A stretch of 34,802 bases of DNA from NCBI GenBank assembly GCA_028696365.1, contig JAQVHG010000002.1, positions 1-34,802 of the forward strand. Reading direction: 5' to 3'. The notes beneath the pieces were generated by a model. The model ran no database searches, had not been told where the DNA came from, and worked only from the letters and a program-made list of their open reading frames with translations. Origin of the DNA: Methanofollis sp. GTDB taxonomy: Archaea; Halobacteriota; Methanomicrobia; Methanomicrobiales; Methanofollaceae. The stretch's first letter is position 1. Every line of letters starts with the position of its first letter. Shown in pieces: positions 1 through 10,551 of the stretch. Both the position numbers and the translations under genes were made by a program.

Positions 1-1563
1 GTGCGTCCCCCGTTCCCCGACGACCGGCTCGTAGCCCTGAGAGACCGCCAGGATCTCGGCATGGACCTGCGCCTTCCGGGCAGCCTCGATCACCTCATCT
101 CTTCCTGCCTCGGGCCTTCCGTACCTGATATTCTCTTCGATGGAGGTATGGAAGAGGAAGAGGTCCTGCGAGACGACTGAGACCTGACGGCGTACCCATC
201 CAGAATCGAGGTCGGCAAGATCGTAGCCGTCAAGGGTGATCATACCCGACTGCGGGGTGAAAAATTTCAGGAGCAAATTGATCAGCGTCGTCTTCCCGGC
301 CCCAGTCCGCCCGATGAGTGCGACGACCTCGCCTGGCCCGACGCTGAGATTGACCCCATGCAGGACCGGTGTCTCATCTACATATGAGAACGAGACGTCC
401 TGAAACTCGATCTTTCCTTCTATAGAATCTGGAATGATCTCGCCGCTCTGACCTGACTCGGTCTCAGTCCTGAACAATTCCTGGAGCCGTTCGACCGAGG
501 TGAAGACAGGCTGGATGATAACCGGGAGAGAGAAGAAGGTGCTGGAGGCGGTTGAAAACGTCACAATATATGCAACATATGCAACAAAGTCCCCGACCGT
601 CATCACCCCGACGAGGACGTCCTGCCCGCCGATCCAGATGACAGCGAGCAGCATCATAAACTGGGTGCCCAGGAGAAACTGGCTGGAAAAAGAGTTGAGC
701 ATCGAACTTTTGACCCTTGTCTGGATCACGCCCCTCAACGAATTCACCACACGTCCGACCTCCCGCGCTTCTGCAGCATGGGTCTTGACTGTCTCGATGC
801 CAGAGAGGATCTCCTGGAGGTCCCTGGAGACATAGGCTCCTCTCTCTCGTTCCAGGTAGGTGATGGCACGTATCCTGCTGATAAATATCAGATTGACCAG
901 GAGAAAGAGAGGCGTGAAGATGATCAGGATAAGAGTCAGTTTAGCGCTGAGAGCATAGAGTATGACCACAGAGAAGGCGACATAAAAGAGGCTGGAAAAG
1001 ATCTGGGGGAGATACTGGGAGAAGAGATACTGCATGATCCCGACATCTCCTGAGATGCGTGACATCAGGTATCCGGTCTGACCGGCCTTGAAGTACGAGA
1101 GAGGAAAACGGAGCACGTGCTCGAAGAGGTCGGTCTGGAGATGAAAGGTGTACTCCTCCCTGAACCTTACCAGGAGGTATGACTGAACCAGCCCGAGCAG
1201 CCCGATGGCGGCACCGAGGATACATATCGCCATGACAAGGGCCGGGAGAGAGGAACAGATCGCACTGAGCGAGGTGTCCAGGAGTGAAGAAGTTGGGGCA
1301 GTCACTGGCGAAGATCCAGTGGCACCAGGCACCACATAGTCAAGAAATATCTTACCTGAGAGGGGCACGAGCGCTCTCAACCCGACAAGAAGGAGAGTGA
1401 GACCAAGACTGATGACGCCGATCTTCCAGACTGGTCTCAGGTATCGGGAAAAAAAGAGAATGTCCTGGGTCCGGACTTTGCTGTCAGTCTCTCGTGCAGG
1501 AGTAAAGATCTCCCTGACAAATGCGATGCCGGCCCTGATCTTCGCAGCACCCTTCTGTCCCAT
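1..1563 (-). CDS. ABC transporter, fused permease/ATP-binding protein (exporter type), truncated at window start before the ABC signature motif
   Basis: Open minus frame not listed in the ORF track because it runs off the window. It translates as MGQKGAAKIRAGIAFVREIFTPARETDSKVRTQDILFFSRYLRPVWKIGVISLGLTLLLVGL...; Walker A GRTGAGKTT in LHGVNLSVGPGEVVALIGRTGAGKTTLINLLLKFFTPQ, then Q-loop VSQDLFLF. Starts just after the upstream rSAM stop. Exact start codon uncertain. Confidence 0.88.
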   Translation of the reverse strand, partial: MGQKGAAKIRAGIAFVREIFTPARETDSKVRTQDILFFSRYLRPVWKIGVISLGLTLLLVGLRALVPLSGKIFLDYVVPGATGSSPVTAPTSSLLDTSLSAICSSLPALVMAICILGAAIGLLGLVQSYLLVRFREEYTFHLQTDLFEHVLRFPLSYFKAGQTGYLMSRISGDVGIMQYLFSQYLPQIFSSLFYVAFSVVILYALSAKLTLILIIFTPLFLLVNLIFISRIRAITYLERERGAYVSRDLQEILSGIETVKTHAAEAREVGRVVNSLRGVIQTRVKSSMLNSFSSQFLLGTQFMMLLAVIWIGGQDVLVGVMTVGDFVAYVAYIVTFSTASSTFFSLPVIIQPVFTSVERLQELFRTETESGQSGEIIPDSIEGKIEFQDVSFSYVDETPVLHGVNLSVGPGEVVALIGRTGAGKTTLINLLLKFFTPQSGMITLDGYDLADLDSGWVRRQVSVVSQDLFLFHTSIEENIRYGRPEAGRDEVIEAARKAQVHAEILAVSQGYEPVVGERGTH

Positions 1564-1583
1564 GGCCTCTATCCGACGAGATC

Positions 1584-2732
1584 TCAGGAGGGAGGCTCAG
1601 AGACCAGCGTGCCCAGGTGCTCCTCCGCACCTGCACCCCTCCCCACCTTCCTGGTCTCTGGAAAGATCCCGGCCCGCTCAGCCTCCTCGCAGAACCAGTA
1701 CGGTTCCCAGAGGTCGCCACTCCGATAATAGTTCTGCGCAAGACAGCTCCCGAGGCACCGCCCTTTCATCAGACATCGCCCGCACACCCCCTCCAGTTTC
1801 TCAGGCAAACCTCCCCTGATCTCCCCAAGCATGGGAGTGTGTTCCCAGATATCGACGAGTCGGTCGGTTCTGGCATGCCCGAAGATCATTTCTGAAAGGC
1901 TCTCCCCGATCCCGCAGAGGGCGTAAGAACCGTCTGAGAGCACACCGAGAATGCTGAAGATCCCACAGACGCTGCAACCGTCCCCATGGTCCCCAAACAT
2001 CCTGCTCAACGGACGGAAGGCGGGGGGGTGATCATAGATCAGATTGAGGGTCGTGGTAGGGGCAAGATCCCGTTCGACCCATTGCCCAAGGGCGATGAGT
2101 TCTCTGATTTCCAGGGCCTCGCCACTGTGGTGCATCTGTTTGCCTCGCGAGGTGGGTTGCAGGAGGTTGAACTTCACCGACCCGGCGCCGAGCCACTCCG
2201 CGAGCCTGACCATCTCCCCGATCTGATCTCTGTTCCGCCGCATGACCGTCATGATCACCTGAGGTCTGAGCCCGGCATCAGCGAGATGCCTGACTCCTGC
2301 ACATGCCGTATCATAACTCCCGGGAACGCCCCTGACCCACTCATGGGTCGTTGCATCGGTACCGTCGAGGCTTACTGAGACAAAGGTATTCTTGCATGAG
2401 GCGATCGCCTCTGCGATCTCTGAGGCCATCAGGGTCCCGTTGGTCTCTAATACAAGTTTTAATCCCTCTCTCTTGACAATATCCACCATTTCTGCGAATT
2501 GTGGATGGAGCAGAGGCTCTCCCCCCGTAAGTTTCACCGTCATGAGCCCAAGCGGTTGCGCCTCTCTAATAATGGAGACAAAGAGATCAATGGGGAGGAA
2601 CGATGTGGCCTTAGTGGCGTTCTGATACTTGGGTGCGATCCAGCAGTGACGACATGCGAGGTTGCACTCGTCGGTGAGGTAGAAGTAGAGCTGGTATAGG
2701 GGATATCTCCGCGTCTCACTGTCAGTGCTCAC
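1584..2732 (-). CDS. scmF: Radical SAM/SPASM peptide maturase, resembles SynChlorMet ScmF
   Basis: YQLYFYLTDECNLACRHCWIAPKYQ (CxxxCxxC), KLTGGEPLLHP, C-terminal Cys-rich SPASM (CSVCGIFS...CGRCLMKGRCLGSC...FC). GTG start at 2732 overlaps the upstream TGA (GTGA); the track's ATG at 2783 would force a 55-bp overlap. ScmF assignment is from memory of sequence style. Confidence 0.85.
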   Translation of the reverse strand: MSTDSETRRYPLYQLYFYLTDECNLACRHCWIAPKYQNATKATSFLPIDLFVSIIREAQPLGLMTVKLTGGEPLLHPQFAEMVDIVKREGLKLVLETNGTLMASEIAEAIASCKNTFVSVSLDGTDATTHEWVRGVPGSYDTACAGVRHLADAGLRPQVIMTVMRRNRDQIGEMVRLAEWLGAGSVKFNLLQPTSRGKQMHHSGEALEIRELIALGQWVERDLAPTTTLNLIYDHPPAFRPLSRMFGDHGDGCSVCGIFSILGVLSDGSYALCGIGESLSEMIFGHARTDRLVDIWEHTPMLGEIRGGLPEKLEGVCGRCLMKGRCLGSCLAQNYYRSGDLWEPYWFCEEAERAGIFPETRKVGRGAGAEEHLGTLVSEPPS

Positions 2733-3847
2733 AGGATCACCTCGGGCAGCCGTCCCCCGGCCGCAATAAATCTTCTCAGACATGCGTCAGGGCTCGGGTG
2801 GTAGACGTCACCGAGGGTCGTATACGCAAGGGCAGGACAGTTGCCGGTACAGAATTTTATGTAGTCACATCCACGGCAGAAGGCAAATTGTTCCAGCGGG
2901 ATCTCTTGCCTTCTCCTCAGCTTGTTCAGGTCCGGATGATAGGTCCAAATGTCCTGGAGGGCGGTTCTGCCGATCTGTCCGAGTTCGATGTGGCTGATCA
3001 GGATGCAGGGGACGATCACCCCGTCGGCCCGCACCGCGATCTTGCTCGTCGTGCAGCCGCAACCGGTGAGAGAGCCACCGCCGGGCAGTCTGTCCATTCC
3101 CTCTAGACGGGCACGCTCCATCTCCGCCCACCGCTCCGCCTCTGCAAGAGGGCCAGCAGTAGCCGAGATCCGGTTCCCATACTCCTGTTTCAGTCGTACC
3201 AACGTCTCCATGGCCTGGGTCCGATCGGCGACAGTGAGTTGCACCGCTTCAGTGTGTTCCCGGCAGAGGCCGAAATGGGACGCTGCGTTGGTGGAGAAAG
3301 ATGGAAGCCCAAGGTCTTCAAGGAGGAACCTTGCGATCTCGTCGAGGTGGTCGACGTTCTGGCGGTGGATCGTCACCCTGACCGCTACGGGTATTTCATG
3401 ATCCCTGAGATGCCCTATCCCATTTACTGCCTGATCAAATGTCCCTGTTCCCCGAAAGGAGTCATGAACCCTAGGAGTAGGGCCGTCGATGGAGACCTGC
3501 ACCGAGGTGCACCGCCCAGTCCCGGCGAGATGTGCAGCCGCATCATCGGTGATCAGCGTCCCGTTGGAAAGAATCGAGAACCGCATTCTATTTTCTACGA
3601 TCCCGTCGATGAGTTCAGGGAGGTCGGGCCGACAGAAGGGCTCGCCACCCTGGAGAGTGACGTTCATCACCGCGCAGCGGTTCAGTTCCTCAAAGAAATG
3701 CAGCCACTCGTCGATCGGGAGGTCGCGCTCTGCTTCGGATGCACTCGAAAAGTGGCTACAGTAGGTACACCGAAGGTTGCAGCGGTTCGTAACTGCAAGG
3801 TCGACTGTCCTCGGCGAGCGCATGACTTGAGATTTGGGAGGGGTCAT
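2729..3847 (-). CDS. scmE: Radical SAM/SPASM peptide maturase, resembles SynChlorMet ScmE (PqqE-like)
   Basis: VDLAVTNRCNLRCTYCSHF (CxxxCxxC), TLQGGEPFCRPDL, SPASM-like C-terminus (CGCTTSKIAVRADGVIVPCILISH...FCRGCDYIKFCTGNCPAL). Start ATG overlaps PqqD-like stop (ATGA). Confidence 0.85.
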   Translation of the reverse strand: MTPPKSQVMRSPRTVDLAVTNRCNLRCTYCSHFSSASEAERDLPIDEWLHFFEELNRCAVMNVTLQGGEPFCRPDLPELIDGIVENRMRFSILSNGTLITDDAAAHLAGTGRCTSVQVSIDGPTPRVHDSFRGTGTFDQAVNGIGHLRDHEIPVAVRVTIHRQNVDHLDEIARFLLEDLGLPSFSTNAASHFGLCREHTEAVQLTVADRTQAMETLVRLKQEYGNRISATAGPLAEAERWAEMERARLEGMDRLPGGGSLTGCGCTTSKIAVRADGVIVPCILISHIELGQIGRTALQDIWTYHPDLNKLRRRQEIPLEQFAFCRGCDYIKFCTGNCPALAYTTLGDVYHPSPDACLRRFIAAGGRLPEVIL

Positions 3848-4134
3848 GGAGTGGTCACGTCCTGCCCCACATAACCTCGTTCCACAAGTTCATCGATGAA
3901 TTGCATAATCTCAGCCGGCGCCTCTTCTGGGACGTTGGAAAACAATCGCATCATCGCCTCTGCGATCTCCTTGACTGAGGTAGTGCCGTCCAGCATCTTC
4001 CAGGCAAGGGCACCTGTTGGGTTGAGGCCAAAGACATTTCCAGTGTCGGGATCGAAAAGGATTGCCCAGTCGTCGAACTCCTCCCTGAAAACGATGTCCG
4101 GGTTCCGTACGTGATATTTAATTGTTTTGCTCAT
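3844..4134 (-). CDS. scmD: PqqD-like RiPP recognition element protein (ScmD-like)
   Basis: 96 aa, PqqD-like pattern: NPDIVFREEFDDWAILFDPDTGNVFGLNPTGALAWKMLDGTTSVKEIAEAM...FIDELVERGYV; translationally coupled to rSAM. Confidence 0.85.
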   Translation of the reverse strand: MSKTIKYHVRNPDIVFREEFDDWAILFDPDTGNVFGLNPTGALAWKMLDGTTSVKEIAEAMMRLFSNVPEEAPAEIMQFIDELVERGYVGQDVTTP

Positions 4135-4315
4135 TGCCCGAGAGATCCGAACAGTCCTATATAATTGTGTTCCTGGTGTTCTGCTGATCCTGGATACACA
4201 TCAAAACCTCTCTCTGTCCTGACGATATCCTTGGTCCAGAGGTATGGATGATGTGACCGCACCCTGTCTATCAAGAACATCTGGCAGTCGCCCTAGCTTT
4301 GGCTGCGGCAAAATA

Positions 4316-4673
4316 TGAGGTCATTCCAAAACTCTCCAGCCCTCCCCCTCCTCAGAAGAGGGCACTGAATGTGGTGGAGAAATCCTCTCTCTTCGTTGCC
4401 CAATCATGCCTTCATGCCTTCCAACTTCACCTCACCGTGCCCGGGGGCGCTGCCCCCGGACCCCCGGGATGAAGATAGGGTCGGGAAGGCATCATGGGCA
4501 ACTGTGACGAGAGTGCTGCCGTCCACGACCAATCGTGTGGCGGGGGGTTCGGGGGGCGGCAAGCCCCCCGACAGAGAGAGAGATCCAGAGGATTTCTACA
4601 GGGCCAGAAATTCAGAAACGAAAAAATTCAGTTCAAGATGATTTTCAACCCCTGTGAGTTTAGGGATATGTTC
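4316..4673 (-). repeat. Modular intergenic repeat, type-A termini, reverse orientation
   Basis: tgaggtcattccaaaactctcc ... gtttagggatatgttc ends; core hairpins cccgggggcgctgcccccgg and ggggggcggcaagcccccc; internal B-like end ggatttctacagggcc. Confidence 0.75.
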
Positions 4674-4822
4674 TATGTAAAAGGAATTGGAGTGCCGCTG
4701 AGGTGCAAACATATTTATATCGATATAATGAGGCTCGACCAGAGGTTCTGGCAGGGTGTGATATCAATACATCGCGATCGCTCGAACTGAGATCAAGGAT
4801 CTGATATCTCAACCAGATTGGT

Positions 4823-4840
4823 GTGTAACATGGGTTACAC
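4823..4840. promoter_or_regulatory. Inverted repeat GTGTAAC-atgg-GTTACAC upstream of the HPr-kinase-like gene; candidate operator
   Basis: Perfect 7-bp inverted repeat, 4-nt spacer, about 50 bp upstream of the 4892 start. Confidence 0.35.
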
Positions 4841-4891
4841 GGCGAAAAGGATCTTTGGAGATGGAGAAGATTGCTTATTTTGTAGAAAAAT

Positions 4892-5833
4892 GTGCTTCAG
4901 GCGATGAAATCTATATCTGAGGATCCATGGAAGAGTCCCGGGGTGGAATGGGGAGAGGACAGAGGATACCTGCTCACTCTCGGCGATGGACAGAGGCGGG
5001 TACTCTGTGCAGATGAGGGAATGACCGAATGGCTTAGCCGTTTCGCCGCGATCCTGAGGCTCGCACCAGGTTGTGTGGGGAATGGTCCTGTAATTTATTA
5101 TATGAGCAGAGGGGGCGTTTCTCCTCGTCTATTTGCGGGGTGGGAGTGCCATCCTCTCAGGTTCTTTCGGGTCTGGTGCCACCCAAAATCCCCCGACATG
5201 ATCCTGGAATCCTCCTGGACCTGGGAGGAGAAACGCTTCATACCATATATCATGATGCACGAGGCTCTCTCGGTTTTATGCACTGATCTCCATGTGCCGA
5301 CCGCCCTCCCCCTTCACACTGCCGCTCTCGCACGGGACGCCGGGGACGGCGGAGCGGTGGCGCTCCTGGCACCCAGTGGGACCGGGAAATCGACCTGTGC
5401 GGCACGGGTTCCATCACCGTGGGAACCTCTCTGTGACGATATGGCCCTCATCGTTAGGGACAGCGATGGGGCGTTTCGTCTCCATCCTCTCCCCACCTGG
5501 AGCGAGGTCACGATGCGAGGACGCACCGATCTGACCTGGGACGTCTGCCGCCACCTCCCGCTACAGGCCGTTTATCTCCTCGAACAGGGCGATCGAGACA
5601 GAGTGACTGAAGTCGGAAATGGGGAGGCCACCGCTGCAATCTTTCGTTCCTCGGTCCAGATCATGACACCGTATCTGAACCGTCTCGATCCAGCAGATGT
5701 CATAGTATTGAAGAGGCGATTTTTAGAAAATGCCTGTACCCTCGCCTCTGCGCTCCCGGCGTTCCGTCTCAGAGCGACCATTTCTGGGCGTTTCTGGGAG
5801 GCGATAGAAGGATCACTTGCAGATGAGCGATGA
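4892..5833 (+). CDS. HPr kinase/PEPCK-like P-loop protein of a RiPP cluster (possibly ScmC-like)
   Basis: 313 aa; GAVALLAPSGTGKSTCAARVPSPWEPLCDDMALIVRDSDGAFRLHPLPTWSE: P-loop GTGKST followed by LCDD, typical of HprK-like proteins next to PqqD/radical SAM or lasso clusters. Confidence 0.8.
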   Translation: MLQAMKSISEDPWKSPGVEWGEDRGYLLTLGDGQRRVLCADEGMTEWLSRFAAILRLAPGCVGNGPVIYYMSRGGVSPRLFAGWECHPLRFFRVWCHPKSPDMILESSWTWEEKRFIPYIMMHEALSVLCTDLHVPTALPLHTAALARDAGDGGAVALLAPSGTGKSTCAARVPSPWEPLCDDMALIVRDSDGAFRLHPLPTWSEVTMRGRTDLTWDVCRHLPLQAVYLLEQGDRDRVTEVGNGEATAAIFRSSVQIMTPYLNRLDPADVIVLKRRFLENACTLASALPAFRLRATISGRFWEAIEGSLADER

Positions 5834-5950
5834 GATGACGCGGTAGACACACACCTGATACTGACTGCAGACCAATGAAAGATCTACGATACTGCTACGT
5901 AGAATTCAGCATGAATCCTGGGATCATATGCAATAAAAATCTGATATCGC

Positions 5951-6188
5951 GGCTTTGTAGAAACCCTTTTGATGGGTCACTCTAGCAGGGTGCGTGCCGC
6001 GCCCCCCCCGAACCCCCGCGCGAGTGATAGGGGGAAGGACGGCCTGTCTCTCTTCAAGTCTCTCGATTGTGCCTCCCCGTCTCTATCTTCATCCCAGGGG
6101 TTCGGGGGCAGAGCCCCACAGCACGAGCATAGGGGAAGGCGGCTGAATCATACTTAAACTAAGAAGAGATGAGGTTTTCTACAGAACC
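5951..6188. repeat. Modular intergenic repeat, type-B termini, flanked by GATATCGC direct repeats
   Basis: ggctttgtagaaaccc ... ggttttctacagaacc terminal inverted repeats; GATATCGC immediately on both sides. Confidence 0.75.
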
Positions 6189-6300
6189 GATATCGCGACT
6201 ACAGAACCGATATCGCGACTACAGAACCGATATCGCGACTACAGAACCGATATCGCGACTACAGAACCGATATCGCGACTACAGAACCGATATCGCGACA
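6181..6300. repeat. Perfect tandem repeat, 6 x 20 bp, unit ACAGAACCGATATCGCGACT (last base of last copy differs)
   Basis: Directly visible in sequence. Confidence 0.99.
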
Positions 6301-6603
6301 TTGTAGAGACCTTCATTAATTATGGACATATCCCAAAACTCACTGTGGTTGAAAATGATCTTGAACTGAATTTTTTCGTTTCTGAATTTCTAAACCCTAT
6401 CCTCCACCAGGGGGCGAGTGCCACCCGGACCCCCCGTGTCACGATAGGTCGTGGACGACAATCCCTCTTCAGGGAGTTTGAATATGCCTTCCCGGCTCAA
6501 TCTTCATCCCAGGGGTCCGGGGGCAGAGCCCCCGGCGAGATTCATGAGGGAAGGTGGTTGAGTCACACATGCACCCATAAAGGGTGAGGGTTTCTACAGA
6601 GCC
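6298..6603. repeat. Modular intergenic repeat, hybrid A-left / B-right termini
   Basis: gacatatcccaaaactcac (A-left) at ~6324; gagggtttctacagagcc (B-right) at 6586-6603; core ccgggggcagagcccccgg. Confidence 0.75.
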
Positions 6604-6737
6604 GAATCTAGAAACCATGAGGACAGTGGGTGACTCCGTCGCTCTTCTGTGTTAATCAATCCTCATTGCGGTGGGATCATCATGGGAATTGAGGCTGATG
6701 TTCAGGACCGATCGGCAGGGTTACAATCGAACGAATG

Positions 6738-6747
6738 TATATATATA
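6738..6747 (+). promoter_or_regulatory. TATA box of the precursor peptide gene
   Basis: tatatatata about 33 nt upstream of the ATG at 6780; GGTGG Shine-Dalgarno-like sequence at 6771. Confidence 0.55.
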
Positions 6748-6779
6748 CGCCAATATTATAACGCAATCCTGGTGGCTAC

Positions 6780-6971
6780 ATGGCAGACACCAGAGATTAT
6801 GAAGCGCCCAGAATGATAGATCTCAGCGAACAGGTGCGTGTCGGACACGGGCTTTGTCAGGACGGGAGTTGTCCCGCCACAGGCAATTGCCAAAACGGAT
6901 GTTATGCATCTGGGCACTGTACAAGCGGTGGAGAGGCGAATTCTACATGTTCTGAAGGGCCTGCAGTCTGA
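6780..6971 (+). CDS. Cys-rich RiPP precursor peptide candidate (63 aa, six Cys)
   Basis: MADTRDYEAPRMIDLSEQVRVGHGLCQDGSCPATGNCQNGCYASGHCTSGGEANSTCSEGPAV: Cys-free leader with YxxPRMxxLSE, then core with Cys at 26,31,37,41,47,57. Own TATA box and SD; lies between the HPrK-like and peptidase genes. Confidence 0.85.
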   Translation: MADTRDYEAPRMIDLSEQVRVGHGLCQDGSCPATGNCQNGCYASGHCTSGGEANSTCSEGPAV

Positions 6972-7127
6972 ACACCACGAGTCTGTATGGTAGGCTGTTT
7001 CTTCGGAGTTCCCGCGCCTGATCGCCCAGGAAAACAGCAGCCGCGCTGAGCAAGAAGGGATCTCATCTAAGTGATGCGGTCCGTAAAAATGGTGCACTTA
7101 GGGCGAACGTGACGGAGGTCCACCGAT

Positions 7128-7742
7128 ATGATCTCTAACCAGATCGATCTCATCACCTACGTGGGACCGAGCATGTACCCCACCTTGAAGCCTCTAGACC
7201 TCCTGTATTGTCGCCCCGCAGGTGAGAGGAGCAGGGTGCGGAAAGGGGACGTGATAGTTTTCCAGCATCCTGAAATCGGCCATATCGTCATCCACCGGGT
7301 CATTGCTGTCACTTCTGCAGGAATAAAGACTCGAGGAGATAACAACAGCCTTGAAGACCCGTATCTCGTCTCCCCAGATGCGGTTCTCGGTCTGGCTCTC
7401 TACGCAAGACGGAATGGGAGACTTATAGCGATAAGGGGGGGATACAGAGGACGATCCCGCGCCGCCGCTATCCAGATGCGCCGCCGGGCGGTGCATATCG
7501 CGGCGGCTGTGCTGCGCCGTCCCTGCGACGCCCTTCCCAGGAGATGCCCGGTCGAAATTCCTTTCCTTCGGGTCGTCGCCTTCAGACGAACCCACGGCAC
7601 AGAGTTGCGTCTCCTCCTTGGCGGGCGATCGATCGGACACCTCCCGGCCGGTGAGAGGCGCTGGCGGATCAAGCGGCCGTTTGGGATTATCGTAAATGAA
7701 GAAGCACTCCCTGGACCACACTCAGAGGAGAAGCATGAGTGA
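7128..7742 (+). CDS. S26-family (Sec11-type, Ser-His-Asp) signal peptidase-like protein without an N-terminal TM anchor
   Basis: YVGPSMYPTLKPLDLL, VRKGDVIVFQHPEIGHIVIHRVIAV, IKTRGDNNSLEDPYLV; SD ggaggt at 7114; in-frame stop at 7110-7112 fixes the start. Confidence 0.85.
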   Translation: MISNQIDLITYVGPSMYPTLKPLDLLYCRPAGERSRVRKGDVIVFQHPEIGHIVIHRVIAVTSAGIKTRGDNNSLEDPYLVSPDAVLGLALYARRNGRLIAIRGGYRGRSRAAAIQMRRRAVHIAAAVLRRPCDALPRRCPVEIPFLRVVAFRRTHGTELRLLLGGRSIGHLPAGERRWRIKRPFGIIVNEEALPGPHSEEKHE

Positions 7743-8883
7743 CCGTGCCGGTATCTCGGACTCAACATCGGCGATCAGAGATCTTCACCGCACATACTGT
7801 CTCTGCGGAGTGCCGAGAAACGATCTTCTCTCGGTCCCGGACGCACTTCTCCTCTATCTCTCTTCGATTCTGCGGAATGAAGAGACGAATCCACCAGAAT
7901 GCAGTCCAGAAGTATGGCGAGCCCTTCTCCAAAGCCTATACCCACACTGGGTTACTCCGATCCTGTATGGATATCTCAGGTCATGGGACCAGGCGCACCT
8001 CCCTCCCCCTGAGATCATGGAGGCCATGCGCCGCGAATATCTCATCAGCAAGGGCCGCTCGGTCCAGATGGACCATCAACTCAACGAACTCCTCGCTGCA
8101 GCAGAGGAGCAGGGGACCAGAATATTGATCCTGAAAGGCCCTGCCTTCGCCAGATCGATCTACCCTGATCCCGCAATGCGGGACGGGAGCGATCTCGATG
8201 TGCTGGTCTGCCCTGATCTGGTGGAAGAGACTGAAGACCTTCTCACTGCTCTTGGGTATCAGTGTGATGAGAAAAAATTTGCAGTCTCAAAGAACTATTA
8301 TCATGAAGAGACATTTTACCCGAAAAAAATTGATCAGGGGCGCGTCGCGGTCGATCTCCACTGGCGATGCACGCCGTCACTTGGGTTCACCCTCGCTATC
8401 CCGCCTGAAGAACTCTTCTCACAGGCTGTCACCGTCCACACCGATCAATTCTCATTTGAGACACTGGGCCCCAGAGATGCCTTCCTGCATATGGCATCGC
8501 ATATGATCTATGGTCACACAAGAGACATACGTCTCACCTGGGTCCATGACATTGCCCTCCTTGCCGATCGTCTCAGGGGTCCTGAGGACTGGACGGCAGT
8601 GAGGGAGGCGTGTCATGGATGGGGGGCACGGAATGCCGTCGAGGTCGCCCTTACTATGGCAGAGGTCTGGACAGGCCTCACTCTCCCTAAAGGATTCAAC
8701 GACTTTGATCAGTGGCCGACGCCGTCTGAGAAAGAGATGGCGATCTGGCCCGATCTCCTGAGAAAAGATCGATCGATTCGATCCTATTTGAAACTCAGGC
8801 TCTCAGCGTTGCCTGACAGAAGAGAGAAGATCCATATACTGAGGTATCTTGCCTGGCGTGAGATGAAGAATCGAATCAGGTGA
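7735..8883 (+). CDS. Nucleotidyltransferase family protein (NTP_transf_5-like)
   Basis: ILILKGPAFARSIYPDPAMRDGSDLDVLVCPDLVEETEDLLTALGYQ ... VAVDLHWRCTPSL; SD gaggag at 7726; start overlaps the peptidase stop by 8 bp. Confidence 0.8.
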   Translation: MSDRAGISDSTSAIRDLHRTYCLCGVPRNDLLSVPDALLLYLSSILRNEETNPPECSPEVWRALLQSLYPHWVTPILYGYLRSWDQAHLPPPEIMEAMRREYLISKGRSVQMDHQLNELLAAAEEQGTRILILKGPAFARSIYPDPAMRDGSDLDVLVCPDLVEETEDLLTALGYQCDEKKFAVSKNYYHEETFYPKKIDQGRVAVDLHWRCTPSLGFTLAIPPEELFSQAVTVHTDQFSFETLGPRDAFLHMASHMIYGHTRDIRLTWVHDIALLADRLRGPEDWTAVREACHGWGARNAVEVALTMAEVWTGLTLPKGFNDFDQWPTPSEKEMAIWPDLLRKDRSIRSYLKLRLSALPDRREKIHILRYLAWREMKNRIR

Positions 8884-8993: not shown

Positions 8994-9668
8994 ATGAGAG
9001 TATCGATGACGTACCTGATTGTATGCCTGGCCGGGCTGATGGTCGTCGGAGTCTCTGCCATGTCACCGCCGGCATGGGTGGGGCCTGGCACGACCGTCAC
9101 CTATGAGGCCGCATTGACGCCGTACTATGCAATCGACTCTGACGATCCCCTTGAGAGGTGGGTGCACTATGAGGGGACTGGAGTGTACGGCTTCTGGATC
9201 GACAGGGTCACCGGGTGGGACGAGACCGGGTATTATGGAGACGCAACCGTGATCAGCGCCTTTGACGGCAGCACCATGGTGGAGGGTGAGTGGTCGTACC
9301 AGCCTGGAGATCCAGGCATGGGCCTTTTCTGGGTTGATCTCGACGGCATCGCCTTCAGTGAGGAGAATCTTGTCGCGGAAGGGCCGATGGAAGCCGCCGG
9401 AGAGGTGTGGGACGCCCAGGCATATTACTATGCATCGATAGGGAACACCTTCGACGTACGGTTCATCGTGGACAAGGAGAGCGGGCTCCTCCTCAGCAAG
9501 ACCGAGGGGTTGACTGGTGCAGATGGCCGGATGCAACGGGCAATCTACCTCCTGCAGTCGATCGAAAACCCACAGCCAGGGATGGGTGCACCTGAGGAGA
9601 ATGTCTCGTGCGAGGGAAGCGAAGCTCAGAAAAAAATGGGCGTGAGAGGGCCGATACGTAGAGGATAG
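8994..9668 (+). CDS. Secreted protein with N-terminal signal peptide, unknown function
   Basis: MRVSMTYLIVCLAGLMVVGVSAMSPPAW hydrophobic signal-like segment; 224 aa, Gly/Trp/Tyr/Asp-rich. Confidence 0.7.
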   Translation: MRVSMTYLIVCLAGLMVVGVSAMSPPAWVGPGTTVTYEAALTPYYAIDSDDPLERWVHYEGTGVYGFWIDRVTGWDETGYYGDATVISAFDGSTMVEGEWSYQPGDPGMGLFWVDLDGIAFSEENLVAEGPMEAAGEVWDAQAYYYASIGNTFDVRFIVDKESGLLLSKTEGLTGADGRMQRAIYLLQSIENPQPGMGAPEENVSCEGSEAQKKMGVRGPIRRG

Positions 9669-9974
9669 AAAATTCTTCTGATGGATCGGCGGCCCCGAAT
9701 CGTCAAATTTTTCCTGCAATCTCGTGCCGGGGGGAAACCCCCCCCTAACCCACCCCCACGACGAAGAGAGCCGAGGGGCGGCATGACGCTCGACTTCGAT
9801 TCGCTCCTCGAACGGAAGGATGAGGGTCAGGAATTGATCCAGTTCTGACATGATATTTTGATCCTGTACTTGAGCCCAAAGTTCATGCTCAATTCTACTC
9901 GGCTTCAACGTGATATGACAAGTTCAAACTCTCATGCAAACCTGAAGAAATAATCATCAGGATCATTTTCATGG

Positions 9975-10313
9975 AGCATATCCCAAAACTGTCTTGGGAT
10001 AAACATCTGCGATCCTCCGCCAATCTTCATCAGGGGGGGTTAGGGGTCGGGACTTCCCTCGATGGAGAAGAGAGTGTAGAATTCCTGGAAGGAAGCAGAA
10101 GCACTTCGGTTCGAGGTAACCATCTTCACGATCACCGCTCTGCCTTCCCGGCCCTATCTTCATCCTGGGGGTCCGGGGGCAGAGCCCCCGGCTCGAGCAT
10201 GGGGGAAGGCGACGAATGCATTTGTGCCCGATGAAAACACAAGGATCTCTTCATTATCATCCGTCGCTCTCATAGGCAAAGAGAAGGGCAGGAAAGTTTT
10301 GGGATGACTTCAT
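9975..10313. repeat. Modular intergenic repeat, type-A termini
   Basis: gagcatatcccaaaactgtc ... ggaaagttttgggatgacttcat; core ccgggggcagagcccccgg. Confidence 0.8.
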
Positions 10314-10315
10314 GG

Positions 10316-10551
10316 TAAACCCTCTAGACTAGGCTCTCTGTCGGGGGGCGTGCCGCCCCCCGAACCCCCCGCCACACGAGAGGTCGAGGACGGCAGCACT
10401 CTCTTTATGGCCCCATCTATTCTGCCTTCCCGACCCTACCGACCCTATCGTGATCCCAGGGGTCCGGGCGGCACTCGCCCCCGGCCAAAGGGGTAGGAAG
10501 GCGGGAGACACACGTCTCCCCCACACAAGAGGCGAGGGGTTCTACAGAGTT
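10316..10551. repeat. Modular intergenic repeat, type-B (left end degenerate)
   Basis: aaaccctctag ... gaggggttctacagagtt; core cggggggcgtgccgccccccg. Confidence 0.7.

Follow-up and report, generated by a model that had tools for sequence, protein, structure and literature searches.

The closest described counterpart of the locus analysed in this study is the SynChlorMet cassette, which NCBIfam represents by the models TIGR04248 to TIGR04252. These already include a precursor family, TIGR04252 (SCM_precur_ScmA, 49 positions, cut-off 35 bits), which overturns the statement in the first-pass annotation of this DNA that no precursor of the cassette had been identified. We found no mention of the SynChlorMet cassette in the open-access papers searched, nor of the TIGR accessions in the papers listed for them, so the chemistry of the cassette is apparently unstudied. 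The locus described here resembles the cassette in that ScmC, ScmD, ScmE and ScmF are adjacent and score over their cut-offs, with a small precursor made up of a leader and a cysteine core alongside. It differs in that its precursor falls outside the ScmA model, and in that an S26 protease, a nucleotidyltransferase and an ABC transporter, though recurrent with the cassette, match no Scm model. The ranthipeptides and sactipeptides (SkfB, CteB, PapB, AlbA) likewise combine SPASM radical SAM maturases with Cys-rich precursors, whereas the present locus has two different maturases, a separate PqqD-like protein, a C-x2-G-x2-A-x3 repeat and S26 rather than C39 processing; of the marks of that class, in which a Cys thioether is formed to an alpha, beta or gamma carbon, this locus shows the Cys-repeat core and the SPASM maturases. 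GeoRSP systems share with it two SPASM proteins and a PqqD-like protein. We rejected a GeoRSP assignment because the GeoRSP models scored far below cut-off, at 123.8 of 400 bits for ScmE and 26.6 of 100 for ScmD.

The window, that is the whole stretch of 34,802 nucleotides that was analysed (G000:C150:1-34802), begins at a contig edge, and the host genome is that of a methanogen, as it encodes methyl-coenzyme M reductase alpha (mcrA) twice. The first 8.9 kb hold two divergent gene groups. On the minus strand lie ScmD (3844-4134), a PqqD-like predicted leader-binding protein (RRE; TIGR04248 at 107.4 bits, cut-off 100; PF05402 at 63.2 bits), the radical SAM/SPASM maturases ScmE (2729-3847; TIGR04250 at 606.7 bits, cut-off 400) and ScmF (1584-2783; TIGR04251 at 564.8 bits, cut-off 400), both of which keep the CX3CX2C radical SAM motif and the SPASM cysteines, and an ABC exporter (1-1563; PF00664 and PF00005) with membrane and ATPase domains and without a C39 peptidase domain. 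The plus strand carries ScmC (4892-5833), an HPr-kinase-like P-loop protein (TIGR04249 at 195 bits, cut-off 125), the ScmA-type precursor peptide of 63 residues (6780-6971), an S26 signal-peptidase-like protease (7128-7742; TIGR02228 at 56.2 bits, cut-off 51.85) that is a candidate leader peptidase, and an NTP_transf_5 nucleotidyltransferase (7696-8883; PF14907 at 174.9 bits, cut-off 31.2, E 2.9e-51), a candidate tailoring enzyme with a GSDLD active-site-like motif and a probable start at the ATG at 7735. The minus-strand genes are tightly coupled: ScmD and ScmE overlap by four bases (ATGA), ScmE and ScmF overlap in GTGA if ScmF starts, as is probable, at the GTG at 2732, and 20 bases separate ScmF from the ABC gene. 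The eight genes with their positions and strands, the tight coupling and the identity of the cassette had all been proposed in the first-pass annotation and are borne out here. Its description of the locus as complete holds for the presence of all eight genes and has to be qualified for the exporter: because the window starts at the contig edge, the 3′ end of this gene is lost, leaving 521 residues compared with about 600-690 in full-length relatives, and anything beyond is out of view. ScmC, ScmD, ScmE and ScmF all exceed the curated NCBIfam cut-offs, and on that basis this methanogen has a true SynChlorMet cassette.

The intergenic DNA has features of its own. Between ScmC and the precursor gene, at 6179-6299, there are six perfect tandem copies of a 20-base unit, CTACAGAACCGATATCGCGA, which two relatives in the same genus lack at their loci. 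GC-rich stretches that resemble one another in sequence, such as GGTCCGGGGGCAGAGCCCCC, recur between genes at about 4430-4480, 6000-6150, 6400-6560, 9720-9780, 10150-10210 and 10340-10480, and look like a dispersed repeat family of the host genome.

The small ORF at 6780-6971 reads MADTRDYEAPRMIDLSEQVRVGHGLCQDGSCPATGNCQNGCYASGHCTSGGEANSTCSEGPAV, in which a leader, YEAPRMIDLSEQVRVGHG, is followed by a core of CxxG-type repeats with six cysteines; the core can be read as four C-x2-G-x2-A-x3-type units, of which two contain an additional Cys at +5. Loci fetched around ScmE elsewhere in the phylum have a small ORF built on the same plan adjoining the cassette, and these precursors share a leader resembling YxxPxxIDLS, a GxG directly ahead of the first cysteine of the core, and C-x2-G-x2-A-x3 repeats of about ten residues. 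The core cysteines are mostly spaced by 10-11 residues, and across 21 precursors with 113 core cysteines Gly occupies +3 in 78% of cases and Ala occupies +6 in 40%, which is 3.8 and 3.5 times their respective backgrounds. An ORF this short, with no database family of its own, might be spurious or encode an unrelated Cys-rich protein, in which case the cassette would act on something else. We consider this very improbable, since a profile made with six sequences, all from other orders, and searched against the 494 ORFs of the window found this ORF alone (E 8e-13; next best ORF 0.31), the family co-occurs strictly with ScmE, and the profile agrees with TIGR04252 on the precursor of one relative, G019. 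The ORF is also preceded by a TATA-like box, TATATATATA (6738-6747, plus strand), and by a GGTGG ribosome site (6771-6775, plus strand) before its ATG, both read from the sequence; together with the homologues beside Scm cassettes elsewhere, these signals indicate that it is not a chance frame.

The alignment behind our wider counts includes sequences from many ScmE-positive genomes, so that recall in them is partly by construction: at E <= 0.001 the precursor profile matched 17 of the 232 genomes of the order, all among the 22 with ScmE and none among the 210 without it (Fisher 1e-21), and among 397 genomes of the phylum it matched 10 of the 11 that carry ScmE and 1 of the 386 others, this sole ScmE-less match being borderline (E 7.6e-4) and at about chance level over that many genomes. 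Independent of the alignment are the negative genomes of both sets, among them the 210 of the order, and five matches, those in G245, G403, G506, G520 and G534. The five ScmE-positive genomes of the order without a match comprise three whose ScmE contigs measure 1.7-3.4 kb, one with a contig of 7.9 kb, and G388, for which the profile found none and a candidate precursor was spotted by eye at L030:5536-5724. Further precursor matches, on different contigs of the same genomes, mostly adjoin Scm-type genes (L114, L115, L116, L117, L118, L119 and L121), the neighbours at L118 and L119 being S26, nucleotidyltransferase or ABC genes only, and no Scm-type genes were seen alongside the matches at L120, L122 and L123.

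How this family relates to the recognised ScmA can be judged from the single genome, among 24 ScmE-bearing genomes tested, in which the TIGR04252 cut-off is passed (G019, 64.4 bits). The match there is L022:7998-8180, the very ORF that had been picked earlier by position and design, before the model surfaced, and a profile made without G019 still recovers it (E 3e-5). The window ORF gives no TIGR04252 match at all, the precursor of the same-genus G155 reaches 17 bits over the full model, which is below cut-off, and Pfam and NCBIfam scans of the precursors of relatives yielded, G019 apart, sub-threshold matches only. By homology to the recognised ScmA of G019 and by its place next to the cassette, the window precursor is a divergent ScmA. 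TIGR04252 covers a small part of the precursor family, and the present profile widens it. The proposal in the first-pass annotation that the small Cys-rich ORF is the precursor is therefore upheld by the profile and its distribution; the further proposal that the locus supplies missing parts of the cassette stands for a divergent member below cut-off and for the recurrent S26, nucleotidyltransferase and ABC partners, and falls for the precursor as such, which had already been named. A precursor, a predicted leader-binding protein and maturases are encoded together, as in a RiPP locus, and we regard it as very likely from these comparisons that this is a RiPP locus of SynChlorMet type with the ORF at 6780-6971 as its precursor.

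Kinase-like, protease, nucleotidyltransferase and exporter genes accompany the cassette elsewhere too. Among 17 well-covered loci, the window included, the profiles detect a precursor in 16, all but that of G388, and an ABC exporter likewise in 16; 15 have the S26 protease, either as a free protein or as part of a fusion, and 13 have the nucleotidyltransferase. Because the locus of G338 showed no S26 protease and four loci showed no nucleotidyltransferase, each of the two may be dispensable. At five loci (L029, L030, L063, L071 and L121) ScmC and S26 form a single fusion protein, linking the protease to the pathway. The S26 residues Ser15, His56 and Asp71 are invariant across nine relatives, and the window protein has, by eye, no N-terminal membrane segment. 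In the outlying G520 (L062:10965-11730), GG-type leaders (VSGGEG) and a C39-peptidase ABC protein stand in place of S26; the predicted cleavage solution of this distant relative is a different one. Beyond the nucleotidyltransferase, the window encodes at 8994-9668 (plus strand) an unknown 224-residue protein that begins like a signal peptide and whose conservation next to the nucleotidyltransferase is confined to the cassette of G155 (L023:15498-16127), that of G451 lacking it; it may be a partner dedicated to the pathway or just a passenger.

A single-sequence search with ScmC against solved structures gave nothing useful. With the ScmC family profile the best match was the HPr kinase 1ko7 (E 0.004), the top five also including 1knx, 1jb1 and 2qmh, and the alignment to HPr kinase covers the His, the P-loop and the Asp-Asp that lies downstream; His142, G165-K166-T168 and D182 are invariant in ScmC. 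Pseudomycoidin and paeninodin lasso tailoring likewise involves an HPr-kinase homologue and a nucleotidyltransferase, encoded next to a separate PqqD-like protein and a precursor whose leader is of the YxxP type. Kinase and nucleotidyltransferase genes are known in lasso clusters, and pseudomycoidin, a phosphoglycosylated lasso peptide, is made by such a pair (PMC8498205). The product of the present locus could accordingly be a phosphorylated or phosphoglycosylated lasso-like peptide, its kinase and nucleotidyltransferase resembling lasso tailoring enzymes and its leader resembling the YxxPxL leaders of lasso precursors; the precursor of G062 weakly matches the lasso leader model (14.5 bits, cut-off 19). 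Yet no lasso cyclase or B2 protease was found among the nine proteins scanned, and the locus instead has a radical SAM/SPASM pair and a precursor with a Cys-rich, repetitive core. We rejected the lasso reading for want of the cyclase and the B2 protease, and find it hardly credible.

Our results suggest a pathway of SynChlorMet type in which the gene identities, the precursor family, the conserved leader and core design and the strict co-occurrence are read from sequence, and from these we infer every enzymatic step. ScmD very probably binds the YxxPxxIDLS leader and would hand the precursor to ScmE and ScmF. These would modify the Cys repeats, and the balance tips slightly towards the Cys sulfur being linked to a residue within each repeat, that is a thioether. 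A thioether is preferred because the cysteines are periodic and the enzymes are kin to SkfB and further SPASM maturases; among the solved relatives of ScmE are SkfB 6efn and 5v1q, which make thioethers. To our knowledge, no established thioether motif exactly matches the C-x2-G-x2-A-x3 repeat. The radical SAM pair could also perform other chemistry on the Cys repeats or nearby residues, such as C-C or C-O links, epimerisation or oxidation, with the cysteines forming disulfides or binding metal, and the locus would still be a SynChlorMet RiPP locus. ScmE and ScmF are also related to PqqE and to the heme and mycofactocin maturases, and the presence of two distinct maturases in each locus hints at more than a single chemistry; against this stand the thioether function of the same solved relatives and a core in which regularly spaced Cys predominate and aromatic residues are few. 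We give such other chemistry a substantial chance, somewhat short of even. In the pathway that we favour, it is about as likely as not that ScmC phosphorylates the peptide on a Ser/Thr, and the nucleotidyltransferase may, more tentatively, decorate the phosphorylated site by acting on the phosphate; an enzyme pair of this kind acts in the making of pseudomycoidin (PMC8498205). The S26 protease would probably remove the leader near the conserved GxG. Signal peptidases favour small-x-small sites, which cleavage near GxG would fit. The ABC transporter would export the product.

The cassette is patchy in its distribution, and of 12 listed genomes in the genus of the window 3 have ScmE. G155 has two precursors within its cassette and, a few kb from the full cassette (L072:1174-4159), a further set of precursor, ScmC, S26 and nucleotidyltransferase; no radical SAM genes were found in the stretch fetched for this second set, which suggests that it shares the maturases of the full cassette. 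At L056 (G528) and L057 (G521), long precursors with up to about 10 Cys each are interleaved in tandem arrays with several ScmD copies, with up to about nine precursors per locus. A search of a genome contig collection with ScmE alone returned three weak radical SAM relatives and no true ScmE. In a plasmid collection, the best ScmE matches listed were only relatives at 25-29%, and the one neighbourhood inspected held no cassette.

The locus is thus a divergent-ScmA member of a known, uncharacterised cassette, and what is new is the wider precursor family together with the S26, nucleotidyltransferase and ABC partners. It is conceivable, although we think it rather unlikely, that its product belongs to a chemically new class of archaeal peptide, in which two cooperating SPASM enzymes turn Cys-linked 10-residue repeats into a ladder that is phosphorylated, decorated with a nucleotidyl or sugar group, cleaved by a soluble S26 protease dedicated to it and exported as a methanogen signal or antimicrobial. 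Only two haloarchaeal lanthipeptides had been validated before a 2025 paper, as stated there (PMC12144867). Very few modified peptides from archaea have a proven structure, and one from a methanogen would add a new group and a new chemistry to them. The wider precursor family supplies substrates for direct co-expression tests, so that SynChlorMet chemistry is now testable.
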